Shown: piece by piece, positions 1 through 48,310 of the stretch | Numbering within the stretch: the first letter of the stretch is position 1 | Layout of the letters: every line of letters starts with the position of its first letter | Source: Rhodosporidiobolus odoratus | Lineage: Eukaryota > Basidiomycota > Microbotryomycetes > Sporidiobolales > Sporidiobolaceae | DNA: 64,000 nucleotides | Assembly (NCBI GenBank): GCA_034387635.1 | Contig: JAOANU010000011.1 | Span: forward strand, 714,501 to 778,500 | Direction: 5' to 3' | Translations under genes and position numbers: made by a program | Notes under the pieces: model-generated | What the model saw: only the letters and a program-made list of their open reading frames with translations | Told to the model about the DNA's origin: nothing | The model's database searches: none

Positions 1-1900
1 GTACTTGCGAGCCTCCGCTTCGTGATCTACGGGGACCGAACTGCCGCAACCCATATTCCGTTGTCTTTTGGCAGGGAGGGGACGATAGGGAAGAGATAGC
101 TAGCGGAGAAGCTCGGCAGGCAGCAAGCAAGTTGGCAGAAGCGTAAAGAAGCGGGGGAAAGAACGAGGCAGTCGAATTGAGGTCAGGCCGGATTGACGGG
201 AAGGGATGAGCCTGCCCCCGATGGGATTGAGAAGCGGTGTGGCGCTGAGCGTCGAGGCGGAGCCGACTCCTCAGCAACGACCGTTATTGAGACCGTATTC
301 CGGACGCACAGTCCTCGTCCGGAGGGGTCAGCGAAGGGATTGAATTTTCAGGGGCGAACAGGGGTGCTGACACGGGTCCGACGGCGGTGGGAGCTGATCA
401 CGAGTGTAGAGCTCTGGCGGGTCTCGAATCGTGGCTCGTGCTTGACTGGCTGGCTGGGTGAACGGGTTTGAATGGTTCAACTGATGAGAACTGGAAGCGA
501 CTAAAGGCGGTGGTCGAATGGCGCAAGCCTACACAGGAGCGGCTGAGTATGCTGACGAAGGATCAGATGGAGTCTGTAGAGCGTTTAGCATCGCACGGAA
601 GGGTTGAGGGCATCAGGCGGAGAGCCAGCATGGGAAACAACACCGGCCTCCGAGTGAGGCTTCCGTTTCCTACTTACCCTTCACACGTCTCGCTTGGCTC
701 GACTGACAGACAAGCAGGACAATTCAGCATCACTGCTCAACGTGCTACACTCCATCGCTCGCGCTTCCAGTGCGCCCATCTCAACCTCGTCCGGCAGCGA
801 CCTCACCCAGAAAACAGCGGCGGCACCTCGTTCAGCTCAGTCTAGACTCCGCCAGACTCAGCGTCGATTCTTCCAACTCGTCATTCCTCGTCGAACGACA
901 AAAGGCGCTGGTCTGAAGCCCGCATCCCGGATCCCTCGTTTCGCCCTGCTCGACAGACCCTCAAGCCGGCGCTACCAAGCTGCGTCACGAAGCAGCCGAC
1001 TTCTCGCTGCGTATCTAAGCATGCTTCGCAGCTGTACCGTGGCCACGCAGCAGATCACGGCCATCACGGCCGTGCGGGCAACACGTCTTCAGTCGCACCG
1101 TGCTAATTTCCTCTGCACTCGCTCTCCGCGCGACAGGCTTTACGCGTCCCGTACGATGCCACGACACAACACTACTTACCTCAAACGGCACAAGCGCTTT
1201 GGGCCAGTATCGATGGTGGCTCTGCGATGCTGGCTCTTCGATACTGGCTCTCGGACCAAGCGATGCAACCTGTAACCATCCCTGGATCTTTGCCCGTTCC
1301 TTCGGGTACTTACCGGCCGACGCACGGCTGAGGTGAGCTCCTCGGTTGGACGAAGGGCTTGTATATAGCACACTTCGCGGTCCTGAGCGGGGCGAGGAGG
1401 ACACGCGCACCTCGAGGCATGTACATCTGCGTGCGTTCTCCTTCGTTCCTTATGCTTGCACCTTCCGGCCGGCTGGCGGTGGCGTCGTACATCTGAGCAG
1501 GTCTGAAGGAGCTCTGGAAACCTGCACGTCCTCCTGGCAGTCCTGTGAAGTGGCCCTGAGGTGGATCGATGATCTTGCTAAGCCCTGTTTTTTTTTCTTC
1601 TGCAGACTCTGCAGACTGATCTCTTCGCCTATACCCTTCCGCAGCACCACCGTAACTTTCTACCTTACTCGTACTCTCGCTTGTCGACCATATTACACCG
1701 TTGCTTCCTCAGCAATGTAGCCTTTCCATTTCTTCTCCCTTTTCGTTTTCAGTTTCTCATATGGGAAAGCCAGACTCGCAACCCGCAAAGCTTGAACGAG
1801 GCGAAAGACACAACCTCGTTGACAACAGACACCGAAAACTAAGCGACTTCAACCCTTCCTCCCTCTCTGTCCGCCTTCCTTCAACCCTCTTCAACAGAAG
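1..1900. other. No supported gene
   Basis: Several open frames occur here on both strands, but none shows a recognisable domain, consistent codon pattern or good splice sites. The composition is mixed and there is no long low-complexity block. The left part could carry the end of a gene lying outside the window. I see nothing I can name. Confidence 0.4.
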
Positions 1901-45354: not shown

Positions 45355-48310
45355 CTAGCTACACATCTCCTGCGCAATCGATCCGAACCTCGACTCGAGC
45401 AACTCGAGCAACTGAGCCAACGACGAGGGCGCGCCAACTCCTGGCGCACCTGGCGATGAGGGGTCAGGTTGAGGGAGGGTGATTTCTGGGTGGTCGAGGA
45501 GGAGGACGAGCGAGGCGGCAGATTTGGCTGCATGTAAGATAGACGACGTCAGCTCCGAGCGCGGTCCCTCGGCACGCAGGAGTAACGGAAGAGAGCGGAG
45601 AAGAAAACGTACGGCCCAAGGGCGTCCGACTGTGCTGCATAGTCTCAATGATAGCCTGCACGCTGCCTCTGAGCTTGACGACCTCCTCCAGGTCCTGCGG
45701 AGTCCCGCTTGCCTTCCTGAGTGCAATTTCGCGCAACAAGGCCCGACCACAGACGACGCTCGTAAAGGCGAGGAAAGGAGGGATATGGCGAGGGTGGAAG
45801 GAGGCGTCTGATGGACACGAGCAGGGAATTCGTCAGTGGCAATCGACAAGGTAGAGCATAGATCGAAGCCTACTATTCAGCACCTGCGTATTGCGCAGCA
45901 TGAGGTTCGCCGCCTCGAGGCATTTCGCCCTGCTGGGGCAGTCTGCTTCGCCCGTTGTAAAACGCTCATGTAGGAGGATGACGCAGGCACCCGCAAGAGC
46001 GGGCAGTAAAAACGCTTGCGGTTCCAGGAGGGTGACGAGCTGATTTGGCGCGCCTCGACGGAAGGCTTCGAGGGCGGCATCGAGTTTTTGGAAGACGGGC
46101 CTGTGAAGGAGGGTCGACGCTTAGACAAGATGGCAGCGTCAGGACAGAGGCGATGTCACTTACGATGCGCGTATCTTTGGAAAGTCTGAGTGCCGGAGTG
46201 AACCCTTGTCAGGCGTGGCACTAGCGAGGGCGGTCGTCCCTGCGCAGTACGGTAGATTCATGAGCATCTATGGGTTCGGAATTGAGGGAGAGCGAGCGCA
46301 CGATGGACAAACGTGACTACCCGACCCAGCAAAACCACGGCCTTCAGATTGATCTGCACCAATCGCACAAGGTCGGGTGGGTTCGAGGTGAAGAAGGTGG
46401 CCGAGTGGAGGTAGAGGCTCTCATGTGCGATTGGGTTTGCCTGTGCAGAGATAGCGTCAGAACGGGTAGCTTGATGCGGGCATCAGATGGGCACATACGG
46501 TATAAGGCGCGGCTGAAGGGAGCAGGGTAGTCACATCTCGCTCGTCCATGCAGCAAGGCCATCCCGTCGCTGCTCCAGCGATGATCTCGACAGTATAGGC
46601 GAACCACCACGTCGTAGCTCGCTCATGCAGTTCCTCGTGATCTGTCGTCGGAGGGAGGTGTGTTCGTATGGACATGAGCGACGAAAGGGGCAGATCGGGT
46701 GTAGATGGGCTCATATGGTTGATGCCTAGGGCGACGCAGATCCGGACGGCAGAGCAGGTTTCCAAGTAGGAGCGGGCGAAGCTGAAGACAGAAGCAGATT
46801 ACTACTCGAAGGACGATGAGAGGTGGGCCTGAAAGGGTGCTTACCGAGCGTGAGCGAGGTTGTTGGCGGCGAATAAGACCGCAGCCTGAGCGACTTGCAG
46901 CAAGTTCTTCTCCCGCCTAAAGCCTAAAGGGATGAGGTACTGTACTCAATGAATGCGCACGACGGATCAGTCACCATGAGCACTGAGAACATGGGGGGGA
47001 AGAAACGAACGTCGCCTTGATCCGCATGGTACAGCGTCGGGCTCGTTCCCTCCGGCCAGTACCTCTCCTCTCCCTCGAAAGCCGCCTCCTCGCCTATGAG
47101 GTCTGCAGCAGTGGTAATCATGGCATGCAGCAAGCATTGCGCAGGGAAGTCTGGATCGCCAGGCGGCAAGTCGAACCGCTGCATGAACCGCTTGCGGTTG
47201 ATCAGGTCCACAGCTTCGTGAGGATAGTCGAAGAAGACGTTGACGAGTCGGCTCAGAGTGGGCCAGGAGGGAAGGCGAGCGGCACCGACGAGGGTCGGGG
47301 TTGAGAAGGACGGCTGGGGGGGAGGGGGAGGATAGAGCGGCGCGGCGGGAATCGGTGGAGGCATCTGAAAGGTGGGAGCCGGTGAAGGTGAAGGAAAGCT
47401 GTTTCTCTGTTGAGCTTGGGGGTAAGGGAAGGGAGCGGAGGAGGACGCGAATGGCGGAGGAAAAGCAGAAGCTGCGTATTGATGTTGAGCGGCTGCGGCC
47501 AGCGTGTTGAAGCTACTGGTACCGGGAAGCCCGGGAGGCTGGTACACATGCTCTGCTGTGTATGCGAAGGGTTGTGCAGGTTGGTGGTGCGTAGGCGGCC
47601 CCGGCGTGGGAGAGGCAGGTGAAAAGGCCATGACAGACGAAGACGATGAACCCGGCCGGTCTACGTTGGTGAGTTCGACAATTCGCCGCTCGAGGGATGC
47701 TGCAGATACTAGAGTAAGGGAATGCGCGGGAGGATGCGAAAAGGCCAAGGGGAACACACCAATCTTTGCCTCGAGTGAAGCGACTTTTCCTCCCCCGACC
47801 GGCTTCCGCCTCTCTTTGTCTGTGTCGAAGTCGCACCGGGCGATGGCCGACTCCCTGAAGGCGCAATGAGCGTCAGCTTGGTATTGGAGAATGGCCGAGG
47901 AAGGGAAGGGCAGCGCACTGTCCTGCTCTGGAAGCTGCGGCCTCGCAGGGCGTACACACCGGCTGCCGCCCGTCGCCTGCATTTTGTGATCAGCCATGCG
48001 GACCGGCTGAGAAGTGGGGACGTGGCTTACACCTGTCGAGTGATCGAGGATCAGCGCTACCTCACGGTGTTTGAAAGTGGGGAGAAGGAGGAACGTACTT
48101 GACTTTACGCCTCCGACACTGCCTACATGCCTGTACGGAGAGGGGACATCAGGCTGTGGCCGGGTTCTGATAATCTGAGGAACGCACTCGTCCACGGCCT
48201 AGAGAGGGCGGTTGTGGTTGTTTCGAAGATTGAACAGCTTGAGATTCAGGAAATGGTAGAGAGGCAGGGAGCTGGTGTTGAGGGTCGTGAGGCGTGCGAT
48301 CGGATGGCAT
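45355..48310 (-). CDS. Zn2Cys6 fungal-specific transcription factor
   Basis: Binuclear zinc-cluster regulator. Thirteen proposed exons: 48188-48310, 48099-48130, 48031-48032, 47919-47976, 47760-47854, 47011-47699, 46845-46939, 46499-46781, 46302-46440, 46164-46239, 45874-46100, 45613-45807 and 45355-45527 (728 residues, divisible by three). The zinc cluster has Cys 43, 46, 53, 60, 63 and 79 in ACRQCRRRKVKC, PVCTPC and ARCDFD; the last spacing is long, as in several basidiomycete factors. A short heptad helix (KVASLEAKIASLERRIVEL) follows, then a Pro/Gln-rich linker and the fungal_trans middle-homology region (LPSWPTLSRLVNVFFDYPHE, FARSYLETCSAVRICVALGI, WWFAYTVEIIAG). It is divergent from a short-chain dehydrogenase, a likely target, which is inference. 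Confidence 0.87.
48031..48032 (-). other. Candidate 2-nt micro-exon in the zinc-cluster motif
   Basis: The bases GT on the minus strand lie between two normal-looking introns: 48033-48098 (66 nt, donor GTACGT, acceptor GACAG, branch-like CTGAT) and 47977-48030 (54 nt, donor GTAAGC, acceptor TGCAG, branch-like CTGAT). The two bases complete a Lys codon from exon 2 and open the third zinc-ligand Cys codon with exon 4. No other use of visible canonical sites keeps both the cysteine pattern and the downstream frame. Confidence 0.65.

Follow-up and report, generated by a model that had tools for sequence, protein, structure and literature searches.

The kind of ultra-small exon considered here is already known, as 1-nt exons have been published in Arabidopsis and Fusarium. 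According to the description of Fusarium CYP621A (Nelson and Syed, 2026; PMC12940212), its 1-nt exon lies, like the candidate reported here, within a conserved motif of a fungal nuclear gene; the coding blocks are separated by about twice the usual intron length, orthologues are widely mis-annotated, and the exon was also found by combining frame logic with orthologues. It differs in being 1 nt long, belonging to an ascomycete P450 and being confirmed by RNA reads, whereas the present candidate is 2 nt, belongs to a basidiomycete zinc-cluster regulator and is predicted from sequence. As stated in the same paper, exons of 2-5 bp exist in Arabidopsis, Drosophila and human, a size class that includes 2 nt, although these cases are non-fungal. 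The 1-nt exon of Arabidopsis APC11 (Guo and Liu, 2015; PMC4674806) is also ultra-small and constitutive, and stepwise removal by intron definition has been proposed for it; unlike the present case, it is a plant exon of 1 nt and was tested in protoplasts. The Xlr2 microexon of Trichoderma virens (PMC11121469) completes the Zn(II)2Cys6 DNA-binding domain of a fungal regulator and was missed by gene models, but it is 20 nt long and glucose-regulated. Stwintrons (PMC5639578, PMC6616335) are likewise two adjoining fungal introns that are removed consecutively; in those described, however, the outer intron has a splice element interrupted by the inner one, whereas all elements are intact at the present site, which keeps 2 nt. 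The phrase single-nucleotide exon is also used in a fungal mitogenome paper (PMC12308204). Among the open-licence matches listed, no title concerned the gene described below or a 2-nt exon in Sporidiobolales.

Here, we analyzed a regulator gene on the minus strand (48310-45355) of a 64-kb stretch of Rhodosporidiobolus odoratus DNA (the window). The original prediction had obtained 729 codons from 13 exons when two bases, GT, are kept between two introns, and our recomputation gave the same result (2,187 nt including the stop, that is, 728 aa plus stop). The best protein match was P0001 of Rhodosporidiobolus odoratus JCM 11641 (96% identity), a genus placed in the Sporidiobolaceae. The product is a Zn2Cys6/Fungal_trans regulator, with both domains exceeding their cut-offs: PF00172 scored 27.6 bits (cut-off 21), covering only profile positions 1-25 of 39, and PF04082 scored 28.8 bits (cut-off 23). 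The zinc-cluster motif taken off the spliced model is CX2CX6CX6CX2CX15C. The features of the model are shown in Table 1.

Table 1. Predicted features of the regulator gene, with positions in the window
Feature	Position	Strand	Support or remark
Exon 1, ATG to GRGR, phase 0	48188..48310	-	MPxDR start and LGRGR/IGRGR common to many orthologues
Intron A, 57 nt, GTGCGT...GTACAG	48131..48187	-	Phase-0 position same in paralogues C20 and C25
Exon 2, 32 nt, ACRQCRRRKV plus AA, zinc-cluster Cys 1 and 2	48099..48130	-	Splice model
Intron 1, 66 nt, GTACGT...CGACAG, phase 2, CTGAT branch-like box	48033..48098	-	Position back-translated in P0019 and P0021
Candidate 2-nt exon GT, base 3 of Lys AAG and base 1 of Cys TGC	48031..48032	-	Sole KCDGRQ path among 3,280; compatible in P0019 and in P0021 with P0011
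Intron 2, 54 nt, GTAAGC...ATGCAG, phase 1, CTGAT branch-like box	47977..48030	-	Position shared with paralogue C20
Exon 4, 58 nt, (C)DGRQPVCTPCEAAASRAGQ	47919..47976	-	Splice model
Exons 5-13 with introns, remainder of gene	45355..47854	-	PF04082; coiled-coil-like stretch by eye
GCAT, the 4 nt that remain on joining donor GTAGGC (48126) to acceptor 47977	48127..48130	-	Reproduces GRGRACDGRQPVC of P0001

Two further observations concern the gene and its neighborhood. The last loop of the zinc cluster usually has a length of 6-8; here it is a C-x15-C loop over the exon 4/5 junction (CEAAASRAGQESAIARC, window 47760-47976), which is unusually long, and its length is equal in several orthologues. 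In addition, a short-chain dehydrogenase-like gene (MANPHAALKPGNTAVVTGAAAGG...) was recognized by eye on the plus strand, from 48626 to beyond 49222. Its start lies 315 nt from the ATG of the regulator in divergent orientation, and a common promoter and a regulatory link between the two genes are possible.

At the site of interest, exon 2 ends in GTCAA and is followed by intron 1, the bases GT, intron 2 and the start of exon 4 (GCGACGG). The placement of two introns of 66 and 54 nt split by GT alone proved exact (48098-48033, 48032-48031 and 48030-47977), and the GT donors, CAG acceptors and CTGAT branch-like boxes claimed for both are present in the sequence, the A of the box lying 19 nt (intron 1) and 14 nt (intron 2) from the 3' end of the intron. 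Thus, at the sequence level, two complete introns surround a retained piece in the range of 1-5 nt. The GT bridges AA and GC to give Lys-Cys and the third zinc-ligand cysteine, and these bases are required by both the frame and the conserved motif. As the original prediction had it, removing the whole interval breaks the frame (termination at codon 165), and using the acceptor at 48033 alone, with intron 2 kept, hits a stop (codon 66). Keeping intron 1 leads to a stop at codon 64.

We also enumerated all paths from the start of exon 2 to the end of exon 4 that contain 0, 1 or 2 introns of at least 40 nt with GT-AG or GC-AG ends. There were 3,280 paths in total, 739 of which stayed open as far as the natural stop, and the zinc-cluster spacing CX2CX6CX5-12CX2C was preserved in three. 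One of these three adds KPR and another swaps out DGRQ; KCDGRQ, as found in orthologues, is produced by the path with the 2-nt exon only (ACRQCRRRKVKCDGRQPVC, in agreement with R. nylandii and R. microsporus). No single GT-AG or GC-AG intron among the enumerated paths gave KCDGRQ, and the 17 open single GT-AG paths were all devoid of the cluster. All 12 modelled introns (both disputed ones included) have G at donor position 5, versus A in the overlapping donor GTGTAA, a tally that depends on introns picked by hand with donor appearance partly guiding the choice. The exon base at position -1 is variable across the modelled introns (A 4, C 5, G 2, T 1).

The chance expectation for such an arrangement was low. 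A scan of the whole window on both strands for intron pairs (GTRNGY donor, CTRAY box, CAG acceptor, 45-90 nt, spacer of 0-6 nt) returned one case, the site at 48098-47977, and the mean in 20 dinucleotide shuffles per spacer length was 0.00-0.05. It should be noted that the short core CAGGTGTRWGY is not rare, with 100 sites in the 24.8-Mb genome versus 67 for a reversed control.

To describe the site in relatives, we used 17 orthologues (P0001-P0017) out of 25 protein matches. Those set aside were P0018-P0021 (partial read-through ORFs), P0022-P0024 (28-29% identity, another subfamily) and P0025 (another zinc-cluster protein), and the further rows P0026-P0028 and P0029-P0036 (two partial relatives, three C20-like ORFs and three other zinc-cluster proteins) were also set aside. 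The zinc cluster was intact by pattern in five orthologues (P0002, P0003, P0004, P0006 and P0009), which may have one intron fewer; P0004 meets the pattern yet has no precomputed PF00172. The annotated cluster of P0004 (R. azoricus; CDGRQLPCCTPC) carries one residue more than those of its relatives, a splice or prediction oddity near the site. P0009 (854 aa; KVKCDGVQPQC) comes from a species other than that of the window. From the same source, P0018 is identical to it over the exonic stretch (343/343), and P0018, P0020, P0021 and P0029 continue, by our reading, into introns; P0009 is thus probably RNA-derived. No DNA of the relatives was present among 42 genome-contig pattern stretches and 600 viral-contig stretches.

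In the remaining 12 of the 17 orthologues the cluster was not intact, and several of the departures fall precisely at the split codon. Two of these proteins, P0010 and P0012, are short at the N-terminus, and two others, P0014 and P0008, seem to include translated intron 1 and are uninformative on the presence of intron 2. In place of the Cys ahead of the aligned Asp, P0007, P0010, P0011 and P0016 have R, G, G and S, respectively. Since uninterrupted DNA in that frame would give Cys, an intron boundary lies in or at the Cys codon of these four.

Such proteins raise the possibility that the main mRNA carries no zinc cluster and that the 2-nt exon is seldom, if ever, used. In the window gene, both routes to such an mRNA are in frame, namely joining donor 48126 to acceptor 47977, which yields the stretch annotated in P0001, and skipping GT plus exon 4, whose expected product is matched by KVKDPSLVV of P0015; the annotated R. 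odoratus and R. dairenensis proteins resemble these products here. However, the annotations vary by species at one spot, as prediction failures would, exon 2 in the window DNA still encodes zinc-cluster residues for which these products would have no use, and the cluster is intact in the five orthologues named above. We therefore regard this explanation as very unlikely.

The original prediction had suggested looking for the same two introns in orthologous genes. A compatible layout was found in P0019 and in P0021 with P0011 by degenerate back-translation, which also allows other spacers. P0019 is a JGI-sourced ORF without a start Met, identical at 463 of 476 positions to P0017 of Rhodotorula sp. 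CCFEE 5036, and it runs unspliced through exon 2, the interval and exon 4. Both exons could be placed uniquely in its back-translation, with donor 1 after AA and exon 4 beginning two bases ahead of the Asp codon. The span measures 126 nt, and with tails of 2 on both exon 2 and exon 4 the middle has to be 2 mod 3. With a middle piece of 2 nt, the introns are 61 and 63 nt long around residues TGVSK; degenerate codons also permit middle pieces of 8 and 11 nt, which would add residues. By our reading, the segment NKKDGAPS in P0017 fits this same DNA when it is read from a false acceptor.

P0021 is identical at 378 of 379 positions to the annotated R. taiwanensis protein P0011. Its back-translation allows a 2-nt exon between introns of 68 and 68 nt, but also another 2-nt solution (62 and 74 nt) and middle pieces of 5 and 8 nt. 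P0011 represents the same stretch in another frame, and one of nine registers fits both proteins. This joint register reads MG followed by GTGTACGC, which equals AG/GT/GTACGC given an AG acceptor; in other words, in MG plus GTGTACGCAGAGCGCCAA the acceptor is formed if M is A and is followed by GT and the donor GTACGC. On this evidence, conservation of the arrangement extends to two Rhodotorula lineages, with other spacer lengths also compatible. The pattern is best read as a 2-nt exon present in one Rhodosporidiobolus and two Rhodotorula lineages, and it would then probably be older than their split.

A different account is that a single 120-nt AC-AG intron (48096-47977) is removed and that GT merely lengthens exon 2. 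The spliced sequence would be the same as with the 2-nt exon, and mature mRNA alone cannot separate the two because GT also directly follows exon 2 in the genome; the cDNA check suggested in the original prediction is therefore less decisive than claimed, as its reads would fit either account. However, the interval is occupied by two full GT-AG introns, each of typical length and with a branch-like box, relatives show a layout compatible with two introns, and AC-AG ends fit neither the U2 nor the U12 consensus; we consider this account extremely improbable. The twin-intron (stwintron) alternative of the original prediction, in which intron 1 would interrupt a splice element of an outer intron, being obliged to leave first, accords with the consecutive removal that two adjoining introns need but deserves virtually no credence, as the GTAAGC donor and CAG acceptor are complete and unbroken before any removal, nothing is nested so as to split an outer donor, branch or acceptor (donors and acceptors being contiguous), the only contiguous block yielding KCDG on removal begins with AC and thus gives no outer GT-AG intron, and an outer donor GTGTAA overlapping the other (a zero-nt exon) shifts the frame and ends at codon 165.

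The micro-exon reading of the original prediction is thus well supported at the level of sequence, by path enumeration and by the back-translated relatives. We consider it highly probable that GT is a real, constitutive 2-nt exon flanked on both sides by ordinary short introns of the U2 type, which would be removed in succession by intron definition. Each intron would be recognized across itself by signals within the intron, with the 2-nt exon contributing nothing. Introns 1 and 2 could not be removed simultaneously, and we infer that they would leave in succession, in either order: if intron 2 left first, the acceptor of intron 1 would face GTGCGACGG; if intron 1 left first, the donor CAAGT/GTAAGC would be whole. 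In either case, the kept GT would complete AAG-TGC. The view that a 2-nt exon is near the physical limit was overstated, since 1-nt exons have been published (PMC4674806, PMC12940212).

Two paralogues in the same genome (L020, about 1100-1623, minus strand; L019, about 1300-1773, minus strand) share the MPPDR start and the flanking intron positions with the regulator gene. C20 (ERGK/ACVTCRRRRVKC/DGARP) has a single 100-nt phase-1 intron (AAGT/GTACGT...CTCTAG/GCGATGG) at the position of intron 2, C25 (ACQTCRRRKLKCDG) is intron-free at that place, and intron 1 is absent from both. We infer two possible origins. C20 and C25 would fit a history in which intron 1 arose 2 nt upstream of an older phase-1 intron. 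Alternatively, GT may have been lost at the donor and compensated by a cryptic GT micro-exon, which would fit the loss of exactly GT from CAAGTGTACGT to CAAGTACGT; in the scheme of Nelson and Syed, boundary bases are lost and then restored by a cryptic micro-exon (PMC12940212). Either gain or loss may be involved, given that P0033, a C20-like sequence, has KCDG without interruption and that the intron sequences show no significant similarity.

Two candidate relationships among the introns were rejected. Introns 1 and 2 share TCCCCACTT and form the best local pair among the 66 intron pairs of the gene (score reached by 9 of 1,000 shuffles), yet they rank only 29th of 66 globally, which is too weak for intron duplication. 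Homology of the 122-nt interval to the 100-nt intron of C20 was unsupported, as the score was reached by 140 of 500 shuffles locally and 85 of 500 globally (130 and 326 of 500, respectively, with splice sites removed).

It is conceivable, but in our view rather unlikely, that the 2-nt exon acts as a built-in DNA-binding switch, in which failed splicing would give an in-frame, cluster-less regulator with its effector domain kept, and that the arrangement has for this reason been kept across Rhodotorula and Rhodosporidiobolus. GT and exon 4 together make 60 nt (2 + 58; 47919-48032) between two phase-2 introns, and their joint skip is in frame and removes three zinc-ligand cysteines. The products of such a switch would arise from this 60-nt skip or from the 48126 to 47977 junction.

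If true, the 2-nt exon would account for the absent or garbled DNA-binding domain in most public models of this regulator that we examined. A GT exon that follows a GT donor may also constitute a blind spot, since aligners can give both bases to the preceding exon and call an AC-AG intron; re-examination of apparent AC-AG introns of about twice the normal length could yield more such exons. The locus would then add one more near-minimal exon to those of fungal nuclear genes, now in basidiomycete yeasts used in biotechnology and apparently in two genera.
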